Assembly (NCBI GenBank): GCA_016209865.1
Contig: JACQVL010000285.1
Span: 1-6,491, forward strand
Direction of reading: 5' to 3'
Origin: Candidatus Latescibacterota bacterium
Lineage (GTDB): Bacteria; JAAXHH01; JACQVL01
DNA length: 6,491 nt
A program made the translations under genes and the position numbers. The notes below the pieces were generated by a model, which was not told the DNA's origin, did no database searches, and saw only the letters and a program-made list of their open reading frames with translations. Positions 1-6,491 of the stretch are shown here, piece after piece (position 1 is the first letter of the stretch; each line of letters starts with the position of its first letter).

Positions 1-20
1 CCCTGACCCCCGACCCCTGA
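1..20. repeat. Heptamer tandem repeat, cut by window edge
   Basis: Read on the minus strand, this is TCAGGGG, TCGGGGG, TCAGGG: a 7-bp unit in two full copies plus six bases, running off the window. It begins two bases after the stop codon of the M1 peptidase gene. It resembles the short tandemly repeated heptamers known from cyanobacteria and other genomes as a class. No hairpin or T-tract is visible, so I do not call it a terminator. The total copy number cannot be seen. Confidence 0.6.
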
Positions 21-22
21 TT

Positions 23-2245
23 TTATGCCACAAACGCTATCGTCTCCATCAGATGCTGCAGCCAGAACATCCATTTGGACGCCCACCGGTAGGCGGCGCG
101 GGAGCGGTAGTCCTTCTCCCGGAGCACCCGGCTGTTGTTGTTGGAATTGATGTCCATCACCAGGATGTGATTCGGGTCGACGGTCGCCGACCGGAGCTTG
201 GACGGTTTGGTGTACCGGTACTCCGCCCACCGGTACCGCCCGTCCCATCGCTCGTTTACGACCTCCCCGTTCTCGAACACCATCTGCACCTCGACGGGGA
301 AGATGGCCTCGCCTTCCCGCGCGACCCGCACCCGTGTCTCATACATCTTTTTTCCCCTCTGCTCCTCTGCCCCCTTGCCCCCCTGCGGTTTTCCATTGAA
401 GTTGAAGATCCCCTTTGCCTCCTTCACCGGCTCGCTCGTCGCGTCCGCGATCCGGTAGTCGAACACGTTCGAACTGTACCAGGTGTTCTGGAAGAACCAC
501 GTCATGTCCTTCCCGGTGACCTCATTGACAGTGTTGATGAAGTCCTGCGAAGTCGGGTGCTTGAACCGGTACCGGTGGTGGTACGTCCGCATCACCCGGT
601 ACATCATCTCCTCGCCTAAGTAGCGTTCCAGCGTGAGGAGGGAAAGGCCGGGCTTCCCGTAGGAGTTAATTCTGTAGGTATCCCAGTACTCCCAGCCTTT
701 CCGGGCCATCACATCGTGCTGTCCGGCGTTACGAAGGTCGCTGACGTTGCCCTCCTGCCGGTCGGGCTGGATGTCCTCGAAGGCGACCGGAATCCCCACC
801 GTCGTGCCCGCGCCATCCCCGCCTAAGTACCGCTGTGACTGCACGAACTTCTGCTTCCAGCCGGCGTGGAGGACTTTATCCGTCGAGTACGTGTTGAACC
901 CTTCATCTAACCACGCTTCTTCGAACTCGTTATTGCCGACCAGTCCGTACCAGAACTGGTGGCCGAACTCGTGGACGGTCACCCCTTCCGGCTGGGAGAC
1001 CCGGCCGGGCGTCCAGGCGTTCGCCCCGCCGGTGAACAGCGTCGGGTACTCCATCCCGCCCGACCGGCTGTCGTTCGCCGGGTCGACGACGGTCAGGTCG
1101 TCGTACGGGTACTCCCCGTACCATTCCCCGAAGAAGCGGAGGGCGTTCCGGGTGGCCGTCCAGTAGCGCTCCTCGAGGTGCGCGTGATGCGGCTGGAGGA
1201 GGATCGTCACGTGGACAGGCTTGAGCGGGATATGCCGGCCGGGGACGTCGTTCGAGTCGGGCGCGTCGTGGGTAAACTCTTTCTCGACCTTGATGAAGTC
1301 CGGAGAGGTTGTCCACGCGAAATCGTGGACGTCTCCCTGGGAGAACCGGTACGTCGTCGTGCCGTCCGGACTCTGTTTCGTCTCTTTCGGCCGTCCGCCC
1401 GTCGCGCCGATGACGTAAGCGCCCGGCACGGTGATCGTCACGTCGTACACCCCGTAGTCCGCGAAGAATTCCGTCCGGCGGTGGAACTGGTGGCAATTCC
1501 ACCCGCCTTTCCACCAGACGCCGATCTTGGGGAACCACTGCGCGACGAAATGGTACGTCCGCCGCGCCCCGGTCCGGGACAGGGGCAGGGGCTGCTTCGT
1601 CTCGAACTCAACCCGGAACCGCACCGTCAGGCTGTCCGGCACCGGCTTGGGCGTCCGCACCTGGCAGACGGTCTGGTCGTCCTTGTTATCGTCGTCCGGC
1701 TGGATGTACGCGAACGTGCCGGTGATGTCCGTCTCGTCGAACGCCGCCTCAGACGGCCATGCGCCCACGGGCGCGACTTTCACGGATTTGACGTTCGTGT
1801 ACCCGTAATCGTTCTCGGTCATCTTCTCCCGGCCGAGGTCGCCGCCGCCTTCTTTGGCGAACGTGCTCCGGTTATTCTTCCAGGCGTTGTGGTAGAGGTG
1901 GAACGGGAACTCCTGGAGGCTCTGCCCGGAGGTATTCGTCCACGTCAACTCTTCCCAGCCGCTGATGACGTTCGTCTTCGGGTCGAGCGTCACCTCCATC
2001 GTGTAGTTGGCGATCCGCGGGCTCTGACGGGGGAGGACGAGGCGCTGCATCCAGTCGGCCTCCGCGCTTGAGGACGGGCTCATCGGGGGAGGGAGTTCTA
2101 CCATGACGGTATCGGGCTGCGTCTCTGCCGCCTGTTGGGCGGCCCGGAGGCTCGACAGGGAGGGGGCGTCACTCCCGGCGAGCAGGAGCAGACCGAGCAG
2201 ACTGACGACGACACTCCAACGAATCACGACGAACGTTCGTGGCAT
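23..2245 (-). CDS. Secreted M1 family zinc metallopeptidase
   Basis: A zinc-dependent peptidase of family M1 (gluzincin, aminopeptidase-type), 740 residues. The zinc site is complete: HEFGH at 425-429 and the third ligand Glu448 in the EAWLDEGF motif, giving HEXXH-x18-E. GGMEY at 396-400 occupies the place of the exopeptidase GxMEN motif, and Tyr529 in SYGKPG fits the transition-state tyrosine. Residues 1-23 (basic start, then VVVSLLGLLLLAG) form a signal peptide without a lipobox cysteine, so the enzyme is probably exported. The C-terminus ends in an aromatic amphipathic stretch (WASKWMFWLQHLMETIAFVA). The start was chosen because AAAGGAGG lies 7 bp upstream; an ATG 33 bp earlier falls in repeat sequence. 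Residues 621-631 are encoded by an octamer repeat. It is last in the gene string, 112 bp after the Gfo/Idh gene. Family assignment is firm; substrate is unknown. Confidence 0.95.
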   Translation of the reverse strand: MPRTFVVIRWSVVVSLLGLLLLAGSDAPSLSSLRAAQQAAETQPDTVMVELPPPMSPSSSAEADWMQRLVLPRQSPRIANYTMEVTLDPKTNVISGWEELTWTNTSGQSLQEFPFHLYHNAWKNNRSTFAKEGGGDLGREKMTENDYGYTNVKSVKVAPVGAWPSEAAFDETDITGTFAYIQPDDDNKDDQTVCQVRTPKPVPDSLTVRFRVEFETKQPLPLSRTGARRTYHFVAQWFPKIGVWWKGGWNCHQFHRRTEFFADYGVYDVTITVPGAYVIGATGGRPKETKQSPDGTTTYRFSQGDVHDFAWTTSPDFIKVEKEFTHDAPDSNDVPGRHIPLKPVHVTILLQPHHAHLEERYWTATRNALRFFGEWYGEYPYDDLTVVDPANDSRSGGMEYPTLFTGGANAWTPGRVSQPEGVTVHEFGHQFWYGLVGNNEFEEAWLDEGFNTYSTDKVLHAGWKQKFVQSQRYLGGDGAGTTVGIPVAFEDIQPDRQEGNVSDLRNAGQHDVMARKGWEYWDTYRINSYGKPGLSLLTLERYLGEEMMYRVMRTYHHRYRFKHPTSQDFINTVNEVTGKDMTWFFQNTWYSSNVFDYRIADATSEPVKEAKGIFNFNGKPQGGKGAEEQRGKKMYETRVRVAREGEAIFPVEVQMVFENGEVVNERWDGRYRWAEYRYTKPSKLRSATVDPNHILVMDINSNNNSRVLREKDYRSRAAYRWASKWMFWLQHLMETIAFVA
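355..386 (-). repeat. In-frame octamer repeat inside the M1 gene
   Basis: Read on the minus strand: GCAGGGGG, GCAAGGGG, GCAGAGGA, GCAGAGGG, four 8-bp units in a row followed by G and a run of six A. The stretch encodes Q-G-G-K-G-A-E-E-Q-R-G (M1 residues 621-631), a polar low-complexity segment between FNFNG and MYETRV, beyond the catalytic region. The reading frame stays open. The composition is unlike the flanking coding sequence, so a repeat that expanded or inserted within the gene is likely. Confidence 0.75.
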
Positions 2246-2252
2246 GCAGCGG

Positions 2253-2260
2253 CCTCCTTT
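2253..2260 (-). promoter_or_regulatory. Ribosome binding site of the M1 gene
   Basis: AAAGGAGG on the minus strand, 7 bp before the ATG at 2245. It decides between two in-frame ATG codons: the upstream one at 2278 lies in the 9-bp repeat hairpin and would give MAFVVQKGGRC before the signal peptide. The hairpin begins only 4 bp from this site and could affect translation. Confidence 0.8.
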
Positions 2261-2264
2261 TTGA

Positions 2265-2328
2265 ACCACGAAGGCCACGAAGATCGCGAAGAAAGCGGAA
2301 CCTTCGTGACCTTCGTGCTCTTCGTGGT
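2265..2328. repeat. Inverted 9-bp repeat arrays forming a long hairpin
   Basis: Three 9-bp units of the CACGAAGGC type on the left (2268 onward) face three inverted units (CCTTCGTGA type, from 2301). The arms 2265-2292 and 2301-2328 match at 23 of 28 positions with an 8-nt loop (AAGCGGAA). The element almost fills the 112-bp gap between the Gfo/Idh stop and the M1 ribosome binding site. On the transcript it would form a strong stem. No T-run follows on the minus strand, so it looks more like an RNA-processing, stability or attenuation element, or simply a dispersed repeat, than a classical terminator. CACGAAGG-type repeats occur between genes in many environmental bacterial genomes. Confidence 0.8.
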
Positions 2329-2357
2329 AATCCCTTGCATTGAACCCTGCCAGTGAC

Positions 2358-3542
2358 TTACATCCACGGGGTCAGATCGACTCGCCGTCCGGCGATGGCC
2401 GACAGGTACGCGCCGTAGCTGACGACGACCACGTCACGCGCCAGCCACGCCCCGCTCTGCGGCTCCCGGCCGTGCGCGACCGCCTCGCAGAAGTCCTGCA
2501 ACTCGTTCGGGAACCCGTTCATCCAGTCCTCGTCCGGGTTGGTGTACTGCCAGCCGGCCGTCGTCTCGACTTTTTCCCGGATGTCCGGGGAGGGGAACAG
2601 GTGGCCGGCCGGGGCGTACGTCATCATCCCGGTGTTCGGGCTGATGTTGCACTGGATGACCGCCTTGCTGGAGTAAACGGTCATCCAGTTCTGCACCCCG
2701 CCTAAGGACACGTCGGCGGCGGTGATCTGGGCGACCGACCCGTCGTCGAACGTCACGACCATCGTCCCCCAGTCCTCGCAGTCTTTCCAGCCGAGCTGGA
2801 CCCAGCGTTCTGATTCGGCCAGGAAGGACTCGATCCGGGTGAGGTTACTGACGGCCGCCAGCACGTTCGCCGGACGGATGGACGTCCCGCGCCGGCGCAG
2901 CCCTTCCTGCGCCTTCAGGAAGAGCGCCCCGCTCAACGGATGGCATCCTTTATGGAACAGGCTACCCCCGCCCGCGTACCGCCATTCTTTCGAGTACGGG
3001 GAATGTGAGCCGCTGTGGGACTCCTCGGCTAAGATGCGCATTATCGTACCGTCCGCCTGGGCGAGCAGATGGTTGGCCTTCTGGACGCTGGGCGCGTAGA
3101 CCCAGTTCTCCGCGTACAGCAGGCGGACGCCGTTCCGGCCGATCGCCGCCAGCACCTCGTCCGTCCCCGCCACCGCCTGGTCGAGCATCGTCCGCGCGCC
3201 CGGCTCATCCGACGGGCGGTCGGTGAACACCCCGGTCAACGGCTTTTCGCAGGCGACGTGCTTCCCGACGTTCGCCGCCTGGATGGCCATCGGCCGGTGG
3301 AGATGGTTGGGGACGCACAGGTCGATCAGGGTGATCTCCGGGTCGGCTAACATCGCCTCGAACGTCGGGTACGCGACCTCCAGACCGTGCTGTTTGGCGA
3401 ACGATTCTGCGCTCTCCTCCGTCTTTGCTGTCACGCCCTTCACTCTGAGGTCCACCCCGTAGACTCGCCGGTAATTCCGGGCATGGAACGAGGCGGCGAA
3501 CTTCGCACCGACAAGACCGACAACGACACGCTGTCCAGGCAT
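2358..3542 (-). CDS. Gfo/Idh/MocA family NAD(P)-dependent oxidoreductase
   Basis: A 394-residue enzyme of the glucose-fructose oxidoreductase / inositol dehydrogenase family, expected to oxidise or reduce a sugar, inositol or related hydroxy compound in the cytoplasm. The Rossmann entry is VVVGLVGAKFAASFH (residues 6-20), with Lys14 where the second Gly of GxGxxG is usual. The hallmark CEKPLTG is present, with Glu-Lys-Pro at 99-101 carrying the family's catalytic lysine. GGGSLFHKGCHPL (191-203) matches the active-site segment that normally reads D-x-G-x-H; the Asp position is His197 and the catalytic-type His is His201. The start was chosen for GAGGAG 6 bp upstream; an ATG 18 bp earlier has only a poor site. 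The gene begins 21 bp after the MDR dehydrogenase stop, so the two are almost certainly co-transcribed. Substrate unknown. Confidence 0.93.
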   Translation of the reverse strand: MPGQRVVVGLVGAKFAASFHARNYRRVYGVDLRVKGVTAKTEESAESFAKQHGLEVAYPTFEAMLADPEITLIDLCVPNHLHRPMAIQAANVGKHVACEKPLTGVFTDRPSDEPGARTMLDQAVAGTDEVLAAIGRNGVRLLYAENWVYAPSVQKANHLLAQADGTIMRILAEESHSGSHSPYSKEWRYAGGGSLFHKGCHPLSGALFLKAQEGLRRRGTSIRPANVLAAVSNLTRIESFLAESERWVQLGWKDCEDWGTMVVTFDDGSVAQITAADVSLGGVQNWMTVYSSKAVIQCNISPNTGMMTYAPAGHLFPSPDIREKVETTAGWQYTNPDEDWMNGFPNELQDFCEAVAHGREPQSGAWLARDVVVVSYGAYLSAIAGRRVDLTPWM

Positions 3543-3548
3543 ACACGT

Positions 3549-3554
3549 CTCCTC
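3549..3554 (-). promoter_or_regulatory. Ribosome binding site of the Gfo/Idh gene
   Basis: GAGGAG on the minus strand, 6 bp before the ATG at 3542. It supports that start (MPGQRVVVG) over the ATG at 3560, which would add six residues, would swallow this site inside the coding region and has no comparable site upstream. Confidence 0.7.
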
Positions 3555-3563
3555 TGTCATCTT

Positions 3564-4574
3564 CTACGTTCCCGTCCAATCGATCACGACGCCCCAGTAT
3601 TCATCCTTGCGATTGAGCAGTCCCTCGTACGCATCCTGGATCTGGTCGGGTCTGATCGTATGACTGATCAGGTCGGCGACCCGCAGCCGGCCATCCTGGA
3701 GCATCCCGAAGAGGACATGCGAATTCGACTCGATCGACGTCCGGACCTGCTCACTGCCCCGCTGGGGAATCTGCCACTCCCAGCTACTCTTGATCGTCGC
3801 CCATTTGAGGAAAACTTGACGAAGAACCTCGGAGGCTAAGTGCGTGGACGGCTCACGAACAAGCCCGATGAGCAGGATTTGTCCGCCGCGCCGGAGGAGG
3901 TCGAGGCCGGTCATCACGCACTCCGTGCTCCCGATGGCATCGATGACCAGGTCGGTTCCCCGCCCGGACGTGAGGGTCATGACGACCTCTTTCACGTCGT
4001 GTCGTCGCGGGTTCACGGTGTGGGCGATCCCGCAGTGCCCGGCCGCCTCCAGACGCCGGTCGGCCAGGTCGACGCCGATGACCGACGCGCCGGCCAGTTG
4101 GAAGAGTTGGGCCGCCAGGTTGCCGACGAGACCCAGTCCAAAGACGACCACCCAATCGCCGAGGGTGAATGACGCGATCGTCGGAGCGGTGATCGAGACC
4201 GCCGCCAGCCGGACGAACAGCGCCGTCTTGGGGTCGAGTCCATCCGGGACTTTCAGGAAAAAAGCCCGACTCGTATCGAGGACGGTATGGGACGCATGGT
4301 GCGCATAACTGAAGAGCAGGTCTCCGGCCTGGATCCCTTTCACGTCGGAGCCCAGGTGAGTGACCCTGCCGATGTGCGTGTAGCCGGGACGACAGGGGAA
4401 CGAGACGAGGCCGGCTTCGAGGCCGGAATACATCGCCACCTCGGTCCCGGCGCTGATGAGGGTGTAGTGGGTTTCGATCAGGACTTCAGTCGGCCCCAGA
4501 CGCGCCGGGTCGAATGACACATCCTCCCAGGCGACCTGCCGGGCAGCGGGAAAGTGGACGCCACGTCCGTGCAC
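3564..4574 (-). CDS. MDR-superfamily dehydrogenase lacking zinc ligands
   Basis: A 336-residue medium-chain dehydrogenase/reductase, the family usually labelled zinc-type alcohol dehydrogenase. The N-terminal GroES-like fold contains ISAGTE (40-45), where zinc enzymes have C-G-S/T-D, and PGYTHIGRV (63-71), where they have GHE: the catalytic zinc ligands are missing. There is no four-cysteine structural-zinc lobe. The Rossmann motif VVVFGLGLVG (142-151) is intact, and Asp169 at the end of the second strand (VIGVDLADRR) suggests NAD(H). The ISAGTE signature is shared with BchC-like enzymes and with the MDR half of bi-domain oxidoreductases. It begins at GTG with AAAGGAG 6 bp upstream; the nearby ATG at 4590 is out of frame. 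It sits 29 bp after the C_GCAxxG gene and 21 bp before the Gfo/Idh gene. Fold is sure, substrate unknown. Confidence 0.9.
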   Translation of the reverse strand: MHGRGVHFPAARQVAWEDVSFDPARLGPTEVLIETHYTLISAGTEVAMYSGLEAGLVSFPCRPGYTHIGRVTHLGSDVKGIQAGDLLFSYAHHASHTVLDTSRAFFLKVPDGLDPKTALFVRLAAVSITAPTIASFTLGDWVVVFGLGLVGNLAAQLFQLAGASVIGVDLADRRLEAAGHCGIAHTVNPRRHDVKEVVMTLTSGRGTDLVIDAIGSTECVMTGLDLLRRGGQILLIGLVREPSTHLASEVLRQVFLKWATIKSSWEWQIPQRGSEQVRTSIESNSHVLFGMLQDGRLRVADLISHTIRPDQIQDAYEGLLNRKDEYWGVVIDWTGT

Positions 4575-4603
4575 GGACGGCTCCTTTCATGGGGGCATTT
4601 GCT

Positions 4604-5098
4604 CTATACACCCGGAATCGGGGTGATCTCGAAGTCCGCGCCGAATTCGATGAGAGTCTCGGCGACGACCTCCGCGACCTGCGCCGCGACGTTCGTGCAG
4701 AATGTCATCCGTTCCGGGCTCTTGAATTCCGCGAACTGGCCGGTCATGTGGTTGCAGATGATGTCCGGACTGGCGCCCCGGTCGACCCGGTGTTTCCACT
4801 GTTCGGTGTAGTACTGGATGGCCTGGCGGAGGGTGTCGGTCACCGCTCCCGTGGGGTCGGGATCGCCGAAATATTCCCCCAAGATCAATTCCCCCGCCTT
4901 GATCGCCCCGCACTGTCCCTCTCCGGTGATCCCTCCCCGGCGGAGCGCCTGGTAGGGGCGGGTGGGCAGGTTGAACGTCTCGGCCAGGCAGATTCCGCAA
5001 GACCGGTGCGGGATGGTCACCCCCTCGTACAGGATGTAGGCCTTCTCGCGTGCTTTGGCGATCAGGGCGTGTTTTTCAGCGTCGGATCGGGGCTTCAC
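4604..5098 (-). CDS. C_GCAxxG_C_C family putative redox protein
   Basis: A 164-residue cytoplasmic protein of the C_GCAxxG_C_C family (Pfam PF09719), described as putative redox-active proteins of unproven function. The cysteine pattern is present: Cys34 and Cys37 (HRSCGICLAETF), Cys63 in GGITGEGQCGAIKAG (CGAxxG at 63-69), Cys115 (IICNHMTG) and Cys134 (FCTNVAAQVAEVVAETL). Length is normal for the family. The chosen start is GTG with GGAGG only 4 bp upstream, a rather short spacing. An in-frame GTG at 5242 would add 48 residues but would read through the repeat and palindrome, so I reject it. It is the first of three tightly spaced genes with the MDR and Gfo/Idh enzymes, so it may act in redox relay or thiol chemistry for them; that is inference. 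Confidence 0.88.
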   Translation of the reverse strand: MKPRSDAEKHALIAKAREKAYILYEGVTIPHRSCGICLAETFNLPTRPYQALRRGGITGEGQCGAIKAGELILGEYFGDPDPTGAVTDTLRQAIQYYTEQWKHRVDRGASPDIICNHMTGQFAEFKSPERMTFCTNVAAQVAEVVAETLIEFGADFEITPIPGV

Positions 5099-5102
5099 AG
5101 GG

Positions 5103-5107
5103 CCTCC
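5103..5107 (-). promoter_or_regulatory. Ribosome binding site of the C_GCAxxG gene
   Basis: GGAGG (in TTTGGAGG) on the minus strand, 4 bp before the GTG at 5098. The spacing is shorter than usual but this is the only Shine-Dalgarno-like site before the conserved part of the protein, and it fixes the GTG start. Confidence 0.6.
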
Positions 5108-5112
5108 AAAGG

Positions 5113-5251
5113 CAGTGACGAGTGACGAGTTAACACAGGAAAGAAGATAGATTAGCCTGAAATGACAACCGAAAGCATCTTGACAACGTGAGTTCTCACG
5201 TCTCACTGATCCTCTCTCGTTGTTCTTCTCGTCACTCGTCACTCGTCACTG
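5113..5251. repeat. 139-bp segment bounded by perfect 18-bp inverted repeats
   Basis: CAGTGACGAGTGACGAGT at 5113-5130 recurs exactly inverted at 5234-5251. Both ends are built of a 7-bp unit (GTGACGA); the right end has three units (5231-5251), the left two and a half. The segment fills most of the 147-bp gap between cupin and C_GCAxxG genes, and its right arm supplies the last codon and stop of the cupin gene. It could be a small non-autonomous mobile element, but I see no target-site duplication in the flanks, so two inverted heptamer arrays is the plainer reading. No transposase is present. Confidence 0.75.
5186..5201. promoter_or_regulatory. Palindrome, possible operator or small hairpin
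   Basis: ACGTGAG-TT-CTCACGT: two perfect 7-bp arms around a 2-bp centre, lying near the middle of the inverted-repeat segment and about 90 bp before the C_GCAxxG start. The symmetry fits a dimeric regulator site, or a 6-bp RNA stem with a 4-nt loop. No convincing promoter lies next to it, so the role is a guess. Confidence 0.35.
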
Positions 5252-5641
5252 CTCTTGATACGGTATCCCCTCTCTCGCCAGCGCTCGCATCCTGTCCTGA
5301 AACCCGGCCGGGGAGAACGTCCAGGTGAGCTTCAGGGAGATGGTTCCGGTGTTGACGAGGCTGTGCCAGGTGTCTTTCGGGATGAAGACCGTCGTCTCCG
5401 GCCCGACGTCCTGGGTTTCGTCCCCGACCTGTATCCGTCCCTGGCCGTCGTAGATGAAGAGGATTTCTTCCGCGTCCGGATGGATGTGACGGGGGATTTC
5501 GCTACCCACATCGACCACTTCCAGCCCCATGGCGAACTGTTGAGAGCCGGTTGTGCGGGGTTCGATGAGGATGGAGATCTGGCGTGGAATATCCCGATAG
5601 ATCAACTTGTCCCCGTCTTGCCAGCGGAAGATCGTTCGCAT
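5246..5641 (-). CDS. Single-domain cupin protein
   Basis: A 131-residue protein with one cupin beta-barrel. Motif 1, G-x5-H-x-H-x4-E-x6-G, is complete: Gly46, His52, His54, Glu59, Gly66 (GSEIPRHIHPDAEE). Motif 2 gives the fourth metal ligand, His93, in FIPKDTWHSLVN (86-97). With three His and one Glu it should bind a divalent metal and may be an enzyme (isomerase, dioxygenase or decarboxylase-like) or a small-molecule sensor; the sequence does not tell which. No signal peptide, so cytoplasmic. It starts at ATG with GAGGAG 8 bp upstream and has its own promoter about 90 bp ahead. The final Gln codon and TGA lie inside the GTGACGA repeat, so the C-terminus may be set by the repeat. It precedes the C_GCAxxG gene by 147 bp. 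Confidence 0.92.
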   Translation of the reverse strand: MRTIFRWQDGDKLIYRDIPRQISILIEPRTTGSQQFAMGLEVVDVGSEIPRHIHPDAEEILFIYDGQGRIQVGDETQDVGPETTVFIPKDTWHSLVNTGTISLKLTWTFSPAGFQDRMRALAREGIPYQEQ

Positions 5642-5732
5642 CGTGACGTCTCCTCACGGGGCTGTGGTATCCACATGGTTGGAAGGATGGTGTACTGAGG
5701 CGGGACAACGCTGACGTTTTGCTCTCGAACAA

Positions 5733-5760
5733 AGTATAGGTTCTCTTCCTTACCCGTCAA
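5733..5760 (-). promoter_or_regulatory. Sigma-70-type promoter of the cupin gene
   Basis: On the minus strand TTGACG (5755-5760) and TATACT (5733-5738), each five of six to consensus, are separated by 16 bp. The expected start of transcription is near 5726, leaving a leader of about 85 nt before the cupin ATG. It is the best promoter I found in the window and may serve all genes to the left. The local AT-richness supports it. Judged by eye, not scored. Confidence 0.6.
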
Positions 5761-5783
5761 GGAGAGATTCATACGGACACTGG

Positions 5784-5802
5784 ATTCCGCTTTCGCGGGA
5801 AT
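5784..5802. repeat. dRS3-like dispersed hairpin with one-base deletion
   Basis: ATTCCGC-TTTC-GCGGGAAT. On the minus strand it reads ATTCCCGC-GAAA-GCGGAAT: a stem closed by a GNRA-type GAAA loop with one bulged C. The surrounding bases (GTCATTCCCGCGAAAGCGG) match a dispersed repeat common in many bacterial genomes and like the Neisseria dRS3 ATTCCC-N8-GGGAAT core. The usual form has a full 8-bp stem; here one C of the right arm is lost. It lies 24 bp past the hydrolase stop and just upstream of the cupin -35 box. No T-tract follows on the minus strand. Confidence 0.65.
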
Positions 5803-5824
5803 GACCATCAGGGAGAAGGTCTTT

Positions 5825-5845
5825 TTCACTCTTCACTCTTCACTG
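5825..5845 (-). repeat. GTGAAGA heptamer repeat at the hydrolase stop
   Basis: Three 7-bp units on the plus strand: TTCACTC, TTCACTC, TTCACTG. They encode the last residues (V-K-S-E-E) and the TGA stop of the hydrolase. The arrangement, two identical units plus a third ending in G at the stop codon of a minus-strand gene, is the same as GTCACTC-GTCACTC-GTCACTG at 5231-5251, with one base changed per unit. Confidence 0.7.
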
Positions 5846-6491
5846 CTTCTCTAATCATCCCCGCGCACTGACGAAATTCCCCGCTCTCGCACAGACTGGG
5901 TTGCGTCGTGAAAATCGCGCAGGACAGACCGGTGTCCGGGGCCGCCCAGACGACCGTCCCGGTCGCCCCGTAGTGGCCGAATGTCCGGGGCGAGAGGCCC
6001 GTCCCGAACGCCGTCTCCGGCCGGTTCAGCCGCCATCCCAATCCCCACGCTTCTTTCTGCTTCACCTCCGCCGGGAGGCGATCCATCAGCGCGGTCTGGT
6101 CGGTCGTCATCGCCCGGACGGTCGCCGGGTCGAAGACCCGGACGCCGCCGTACGCCCCGCCGCTCAGGAACGTCTGGCAGAAGACGCTCATGTCCCGCAC
6201 GGTCGAGAACATCCCGCCCCAGGGCGCGCCGAACGCCCGCCAGTAGGGTTTATTCCAGCCCCAATCTGCTTCGATTAAGTCGTCCGGCAGCCGGATTTCA
6301 GGAATACGTCCCAGCATCTCCGGCCTGACGCCGAGCGCGGTGTCCGCCATGCCTAACGGCTCGAACACTTCACGCCGGAGGAACTCCGGAAGGGGTGTTC
6401 CTGTCACTCGCCAGACGATCTCCCCTAAGATGGCGATCCCGGCGCTCTGGTACGAGATGTTCGTCCCCGGCTCGAACAGCAGGTCGAGGTC
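5826..6491 (-). CDS. Beta-lactamase family serine hydrolase, N-terminus missing
   Basis: The C-terminal 221 residues of a class C beta-lactamase / penicillin-binding-protein-like hydrolase (PF00144 family). The reading frame is open to the window edge, so the start and the SxxK nucleophile motif lie outside. Visible family marks: PGTNISYQSAGIAILGEIV (residues 8-26), with Tyr14 of the YxN-type motif, here Tyr-Gln-Ser; GGMFSTVRDMSVFCQTFLSGG; WGLGW; and FGHYGATG, with His173-Tyr-Gly for the HxG/KTG third motif. Such proteins are more often esterases, peptidases or transpeptidase-like enzymes than true resistance enzymes. The last five residues are encoded by a heptamer repeat, so the native C-terminus may have been altered. 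A GTG at 6407 is internal, not the start. It ends 184 bp before the cupin start and appears to be a separate transcription unit. Confidence 0.9.
   Translation of the reverse strand, partial: DLDLLFEPGTNISYQSAGIAILGEIVWRVTGTPLPEFLRREVFEPLGMADTALGVRPEMLGRIPEIRLPDDLIEADWGWNKPYWRAFGAPWGGMFSTVRDMSVFCQTFLSGGAYGGVRVFDPATVRAMTTDQTALMDRLPAEVKQKEAWGLGWRLNRPETAFGTGLSPRTFGHYGATGTVVWAAPDTGLSCAIFTTQPSLCESGEFRQCAGMIREAVKSEE

Follow-up and report, generated by a model that had tools for sequence, protein, structure and literature searches.

Why should short tandem repeats crowd around gene ends in an environmental bacterium, with a unit that seems to change from gene to gene? The question is raised by a 6,491-nucleotide stretch of a Candidatus Latescibacterota bacterium (the window; contig JACQVL010000285.1 of GCA_016209865.1), which is one entire contig of a 3.75-Mb assembly that comprises 356 contigs and is 83% complete. 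A preliminary description had found five arrays here, four of them near gene stops and one inside the M1 gene, and took them to point to an active repeat-generating or repeat-spreading process aimed at gene ends, or to selection against it elsewhere. We located all five at the genes named, and the arrays are real, but two of them have inverted partners that had been missed or left unpaired. In the genome at large, the elements to which such arrays belong are intergenic, paired, polar and lineage-specific, fall into families, and sit at junctions where relatives have short gaps or overlapping genes. We tentatively favour the explanation that the arrays are arms of heptamer-armed palindromes that may have spread as selfish hairpin-forming sequences, with later slippage.

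Abundance and architecture of the elements

The genome was sampled as 44 stretches (443 kb) chosen without regard to repeats, and Tandem Repeats Finder was run on them and on an order-3 Markov control. Period 7 gave 131 rows versus 2 in the control, with smaller excesses at period 8 (19 versus 2) and period 9 (14 versus 4). That only period 7 is in excess, as an exact-match scan had it, was overturned by this approximate scan; unit length 7 dominates all other periods, and a window-sized stretch is expected to hold about 0.03 period-7 arrays by chance. The dominance of period 7 would suit local slippage only, in which a gap acquires a small hairpin and the heptamers of its two arms are multiplied by polymerase slippage. 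Slippage was proposed by Mrazek 2007, with seven bases favoured by the polymerase footprint, as cited in PMC4692102 and PMC4679880.

In its basic form, an element consists of a G-rich heptamer array, a mostly unrelated interior of ~20-120 bp and a reverse-complement array, which together bracket the gap on both sides. The general structure is AAAA-(G)C-[G-rich 7-mer x3-4]-AAAA, the interior, and TTTT-[C-rich 7-mer x3-4]-G(C)-TTTT. An inverted partner in the same gap was found for 50 of 108 arrays and a direct partner for 3; control partners came from other array-bearing gaps for 14 of the 108 and from array-free gaps for 1 (p about 7e-15). The pairing is repeated in G013, a genome of the same order that has its own 7- and 8-mer families in identical architecture (inverted 32/77 versus 4/77). 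In the GTGACGA family, whose arm consensus is AAAA-(G)C-AGTGACG-AGTGAC(A/C/G)-AGTGACG-AGTGACG-AGT-AAAA, adjacent arm pairs less than 300 bp apart are convergent in 22 of 22 cases, and the outer edge is nearer to the gene in 81 of 89 arms.

The arms sort into about ten unit families, most of which have an A-rich inner flank. The preliminary description had given each gene its own unit, which does not hold: both GTGACGA and GTGAAGA represent a single family that is present in high copy throughout the genome, of which they are variants. Arms of the AGTGACG, ATTTTGG and AAGGACG families show a length peak at 30-31 bp, i.e., four units (45 of 94 arms for AGTGACG), which is less clear in the smaller families. 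The middle units of four-unit GTGACGA arms show like variation across loci, and segment trimming may account for part of this. Families that share length and flanks at high copy require dispersal, and per-gene slippage would not give them. With unit, length and A-tract flanks recurring at about a hundred sampled loci, and with the like middle-unit variation (to which trimming may contribute) pointing the same way, we consider slippage alone unlikely. It does draw support from arms that are each homogeneous and one base off their partner, e.g., GTGATTTG versus GTTGATTT in stretch L182.

The elements are also polar. G outnumbers C in the 5' arm of 37 of the 42 elements of this genome (2 opposite, 3 equal), and this arm is G-rich in 29 of 32 paired arrays of G013, although sign-test p-values overstate this evidence because elements of one family are not independent. 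Both the four-unit preference and the G-rich 5' arms would be expected if four G-rich units were kept since four G-tracts form a quadruplex, as discussed by Rehm et al. 2015. Quadruplex-capable G-tracts are present in some minor families and lacking in the dominant AGTGACG, which is without GG and cannot form a quadruplex, yet has the four-unit peak. We therefore reject the quadruplex as a general cause and hold this explanation to be highly improbable; it could still apply to GGGG-bearing families.

Neisseria dRS3 is a palindrome of the form ATTCCC-N8-GGGAAT. A similar palindrome occurs inside several of the elements studied here, as interior rather than arms. Its intact form, ATTCCCGCNNNNGCGGGAAT, has 138 copies in this genome and none in 15 relatives of the same order, and often lies inside heptamer-armed elements.

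Further palindromes were seen in the sample. Period-8 arrays built of AACGTTNN/AACGTGNN-like units pair up in inverted orientation, with short loops between them (L049 2150-2232, L053 51-135 and L090 18309-18394). A palindrome GTAGGGGCGAAGCATTCGC...GCGAATGCTTCGCCCCTAC is found in L038 (1686-1780) and at the contig ends of L054, L062 and L075; in L038 a gene takes its TAG stop from this palindrome, whereas in G013 the counterpart of that gene runs 4 bp into the following one. The family of this palindrome, with 15 GTAGGGGCGA sites in 443 kb and none in coding sequence, resembles GTAG-type repetitive extragenic palindromic (REP) sequences, although no REP-associated tyrosine transposase (RAYT) was found in the genome.

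Position relative to genes

Genes in the sample were predicted with a simple hexamer-model caller (87% coding; gene starts approximate). Merging of period-7/14 rows left 140 arrays, of which 120 fall between genes, where random placement would give 17. A stop is no more than 100 bp away for 93 of them (21 by chance), and a start for 76 (23 by chance). When placement was confined to intergenic sequence (300 trials), the enrichment near stops remained, at 80 of 120 versus 49 (maximum 65), and the count near starts (68 versus 54) was inside the simulated range of 39-69. The preliminary description was thus right that arrays are enriched near stop codons. Its claim that 3' ends are targeted is not supported, given that palindrome arms span junctions and that divergent gaps, which have no stop, carry arrays no less frequently than convergent gaps do. 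Arrays are present in 70 of 283 co-directional, 9 of 25 divergent and 6 of 31 convergent gene pairs in this genome, and in 46 of 325, 14 of 51 and 5 of 52, respectively, in G013. Since divergent gaps are longer, the pooled difference (23/76 divergent versus 11/83 convergent, Fisher p = 0.012) is to be read as no 3'-end preference, and not as a divergent preference. From stop to start, successive fifths of co-directional gaps hold 31, 15, 4, 19 and 11 arrays, so that both ends are occupied.

The outer arm edge on the stop side is a median of 3 bp from the gene, and edges cluster at -5, -12 and -19, where the TGA of the gene lies within the array; on the start side the median is 24 bp. Added together, the two medians come close to that of array-free gaps (31.5 bp), which fits insertion into ordinary short gaps with the ribosome-binding region spared. 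An array with TGA in it brings its own stop codon. The last coding and first intergenic bases can be disturbed and the region before a start cannot, which would explain the tight fit at stops. We infer that clustering at gene 3' ends is a by-product of tolerance.

Stop-hugging positions, very stable stems (each of the 22 GTGACGA elements gives a better fold than its shuffled versions), and 5' A-tract and 3' T-tract edges that look like a bidirectional terminator could instead point to selected RNA or DNA structures, with hairpins serving transcription termination, transcript-end protection or nucleoid-protein binding. However, the loops are mostly 60-120 nt, and a terminator should be depleted from divergent gaps, which the counts above contradict. 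Moreover, the elements are absent at matching junctions of G011, a related genome, and scarce in several genomes of the same order. At one junction, our genome and G011 both have a terminator close to the stop, and the 236-bp gap of our genome has the element in addition, downstream of the terminator. We regard selected structures as distinctly unlikely.

In this genome, 14 heptamer arrays are found no more than 150 bp from a contig end, versus 4.6 expected, and these repeats probably help to fragment the assembly. Such an excess at contig ends, of which the window has an instance, is what an assembly or binning artefact would produce, but most arrays are inside contigs between ordinary genes, and the architecture recurs in the independent genome G013 and has been described in Xanthomonas (PMC4692102). 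The probability of an artefact is close to negligible.

The same junctions in related genomes

The GTGACGA unit, as GTGACGAGTGACGAG, has 237 copies in the assembly (none for the reversed control) and none in 58 other genomes, 15 of them from the same order and 43 others. Six other genomes of the order that were sampled have almost no arrays, and G011 has few. By contrast, the 17-base heptamer run GATTTTGGATTTTGGAT is found 83 times in our genome, 26 times in G011, and 72 and 27 times in G044 and G055, which belong to unrelated families; it is absent from 53 of 59 genomes. Such identical units in unrelated families also argue against slippage alone. Heptamers also abound in the 20 kb sampled from two further unrelated genomes (L227 and L234).

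Junctions were compared in 15 automated rows and in gene pairs inspected by hand, a small set with distant relatives. One junction has 142 bp with a CAGTGGT pair in our genome, 3 bp in G011, and 54 bp made of two other heptamers in G013. A second has 226 bp with a GTGACGA pair versus 34 bp in G011. At a third, with 72 bp and an AAGGACG pair, the TAA of the array is the stop codon of the gene, and the G011 genes overlap by 4 bp. A fourth (148 bp, and 104 bp in G013) begins in both genomes with arrays directly after the stop, the units being different, and a convergent junction likewise has repeats of different sequence in both. Thus, as judged from distant relatives only, three junctions keep arrays with other units and several are empty. 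Different units at the same junction in our genome and in G013 speak for local slippage. The few comparisons with distant relatives lead us to infer insertion at junctions, and the sequence data support lineage-specific spread combined with tolerance. In this sense, the repeat-spreading process proposed in the preliminary description is borne out by hundreds of copies, a unit absent from all other genomes searched, and syntenic sites that are empty or differently filled. For the window itself, synteny gave no help: the Gfo/Idh gene was found in no relative at E below 1e-30, and the M1 gene only in G013 (46% identity).

A possible mechanism

In the explanation that we tentatively favour, hairpin-forming selfish sequences would be copied to new sites by putative copying machinery, behaving like REP doublets forming hairpins (REPINs) or miniature inverted-repeat transposable elements (MITEs). 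The units of the arms would subsequently mutate, and slippage would change their copy number. Insertions would persist where nothing essential is broken, i.e., on the stop-codon side of short junctions and occasionally in a variable protein loop, and the inserted array would often provide a new stop codon. The arms are terminal inverted repeats, as a MITE demands.

Several observations weigh against this explanation. Interiors are non-homologous between elements except for the dRS3-like palindrome, whereas a MITE has a conserved interior, which means that no complete element was copied as a classical MITE would be. The two arms within an element resemble each other no more closely than arms taken from separate elements do (permutation p = 0.86). 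One junction has 49 bp with an arm in our genome and 185 bp without arrays in G013. No target-site duplication is definable, the relatives being too distant for exact boundaries. Finally, the 83%-complete assembly has no match to RAYT (PF01797, Y1_Tnp) and no reverse transcriptase (PF00078), and the 443-kb sample holds no high-copy transposase-like gene.

Three more specific mechanisms were rejected. Mobilisation by RAYT or reverse transcriptase was dismissed with neither gene found in the 83%-complete assembly; nor does a GTAG-type tetranucleotide adjoin the palindrome, the outer flank of the arms being AAAAGC. Against an element-borne transposase stand the small number of long-range convergent arms and the lack of a high-copy gene in the sample. 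Concerted evolution inside the hairpin was discarded on the arm comparison above.

A broader, and in our estimate improbable, idea is that an as yet undescribed mechanism common to several phyla makes or copies arms of 4 x 7 bases with fixed polarity, whatever the unit, so that architecture rather than sequence would be inherited. With this polarity, the G-rich strand would lead away from the flanking gene in the 5' to 3' direction, much as telomeric repeats point to the end of a chromosome. Possible forms would be an enzyme that adds templated short repeats to DNA ends that are broken or form hairpins, or a trans-acting nuclease that copies hairpins.

Elements of the window

The genes of the window are all on the minus strand and encode an M1 peptidase, a Gfo/Idh oxidoreductase, a zinc-type dehydrogenase, a C_GCAxxG protein, a cupin and a beta-lactamase-like hydrolase; repeats are listed in Table 1. 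As originally reported, the 21-bp (3543-3563) and 29-bp (4575-4603) gaps are free of arrays.

Table 1. Repeat features of the window
Feature	Positions	Strand	Remarks
TCAGGGG-type heptamer array TCAGGGGTCGGGGGTCAGGG (as read on -)	1-20	-	3 bp past M1 stop; cut by contig end
G-rich period-8 array, GCAGRGGG-like	354-386	-	within M1 coding sequence; encodes loop KPQGGKGAEEQRGKKM
Left arm of 9-mer-armed palindrome, ACCACGAAGGCCACGAAGATCGCGAAG	2265-2291	+	about 20 bp from M1 start
Right arm of 9-mer-armed palindrome, CCTTCGTGACCTTCGTGCTCTTCGTGGT	2301-2328	-	about 30 bp from Gfo/Idh stop
Left arm of GTGACGA element, GCAGTGACGAGTGACGAGT	5112-5130	+	upstream of C_GCAxxG gene start
GTGACGA element interior	5131-5227		only 12-14-base matches to other element interiors in sample
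Right arm of GTGACGA element, CTCGTCACTCGTCACTCGTCACTGC	5228-5252	-	holds cupin stop codon; C-terminus ...YQEQ-stop
Degenerate dRS3-like palindrome GGATTCCGCTTTCGCGGGAATGAC	5782-5805		adjoins GTGAAGA arm
Single GTGACGA/GTGAAGA-family arm, GCAGTGAAGAGTGAAGAGTGAA (as read on -)	5825-5846	-	supplies hydrolase last residues and stop

The two arms of the GTGACGA element face each other across the whole cupin/C_GCAxxG gap, and the whole element folds with z -5.5. The 9-mer palindrome (2265-2328; unit of the right array CACGAAGNN) has a fold z of -8.9 and departs from the rule in that its left arm is not clearly G-rich; CACGAAGNNCACGAAG occurs 15 times in the assembly, and 27 sites were noted in G055, from an unrelated family. 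For the GTGAAGA arm an inverted partner was looked for and none was found, and the surrounding stretch folds ordinarily (z -0.9). A partner of the TCAGGGG array cannot be judged as the contig ends there.

The period-8 array inside the M1 gene might have been conserved coding sequence. This was rejected: in an alignment of about 30 homologous loci, the loop varies freely in length and sequence, which suggests a repeat tolerated inside a protein. G-rich runs resembling this array are also seen in intergenic gaps of L054, L063 and L080.

Relation to known repeats

The type of repeat is already known, both as heptamer arrays with inverted pairing in Xanthomonas (PMC4692102) and as heptamers with a patchy cross-phylum distribution (PMC4679880). 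The GGGAATC arrays of Xanthomonas (Rehm et al. 2015, PMC4692102) are intergenic, lie between co-directional genes and at most 50 bp from stops, prefer four units, and include 70 and 75 convergent inverted pairs; no link to insertion sequences was seen. Their G-rich arrays are nearer to the gene on the 5' side whatever the gene orientation, a rule with which the polarity in our genome and in G013 agrees, and between related species the gene context is retained (83%). Period 7, intergenic sites near gene ends, convergent inverted pairs and the four-unit preference are common to both systems. Unlike Xanthomonas, with its one quadruplex-forming unit, our genome has about ten coexisting families, of which GTGACGA is unable to form a quadruplex, as well as A-tract edges, nesting, and junctions that are empty or differently filled in relatives.

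Cyanobacterial heptamers also come in several intergenic families, although few inverted pairs are reported for the GGGGA(C/T)T heptamers of Nostoc (PMC4692102); the same article cites heptanucleotides of Calothrix. The TAACTGA repeats of Beggiatoaceae (MacGregor 2015, PMC4679880) are likewise intergenic heptamers spread patchily across distant phyla; they are mostly just upstream of starts, with one indirect repeat in the main genome, and a translational role has been proposed. REPINs and RAYT-mobilised REPs (PMC3116915) share with our elements the many dispersed intergenic inverted pairs; here, however, the arms are tandem heptamers, and no RAYT was found. In the available literature, which leaves out most subscription papers, we did not meet the multi-family architecture, the polarity in two genomes, the four-unit rule without G-tracts, or comparisons of the same junction with different units. 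One unit common to unrelated families also appears to be new.

Heptamer arrays are on record for bacteria, but neither their origin nor their role is agreed upon. In this genome the basic unit is often an inverted pair, and rules of length and polarity apply to units unrelated to one another and recur in a second genome. As a general explanation of the four-unit preference, the quadruplex does not suffice. The junction comparisons make origin and spread testable, since one gene pair can overlap, be 3 bp apart, or be split by either of two heptamer families. The elements split assemblies and change protein C-termini via the stop codons they supply, and hence matter for the annotation of environmental genomes.

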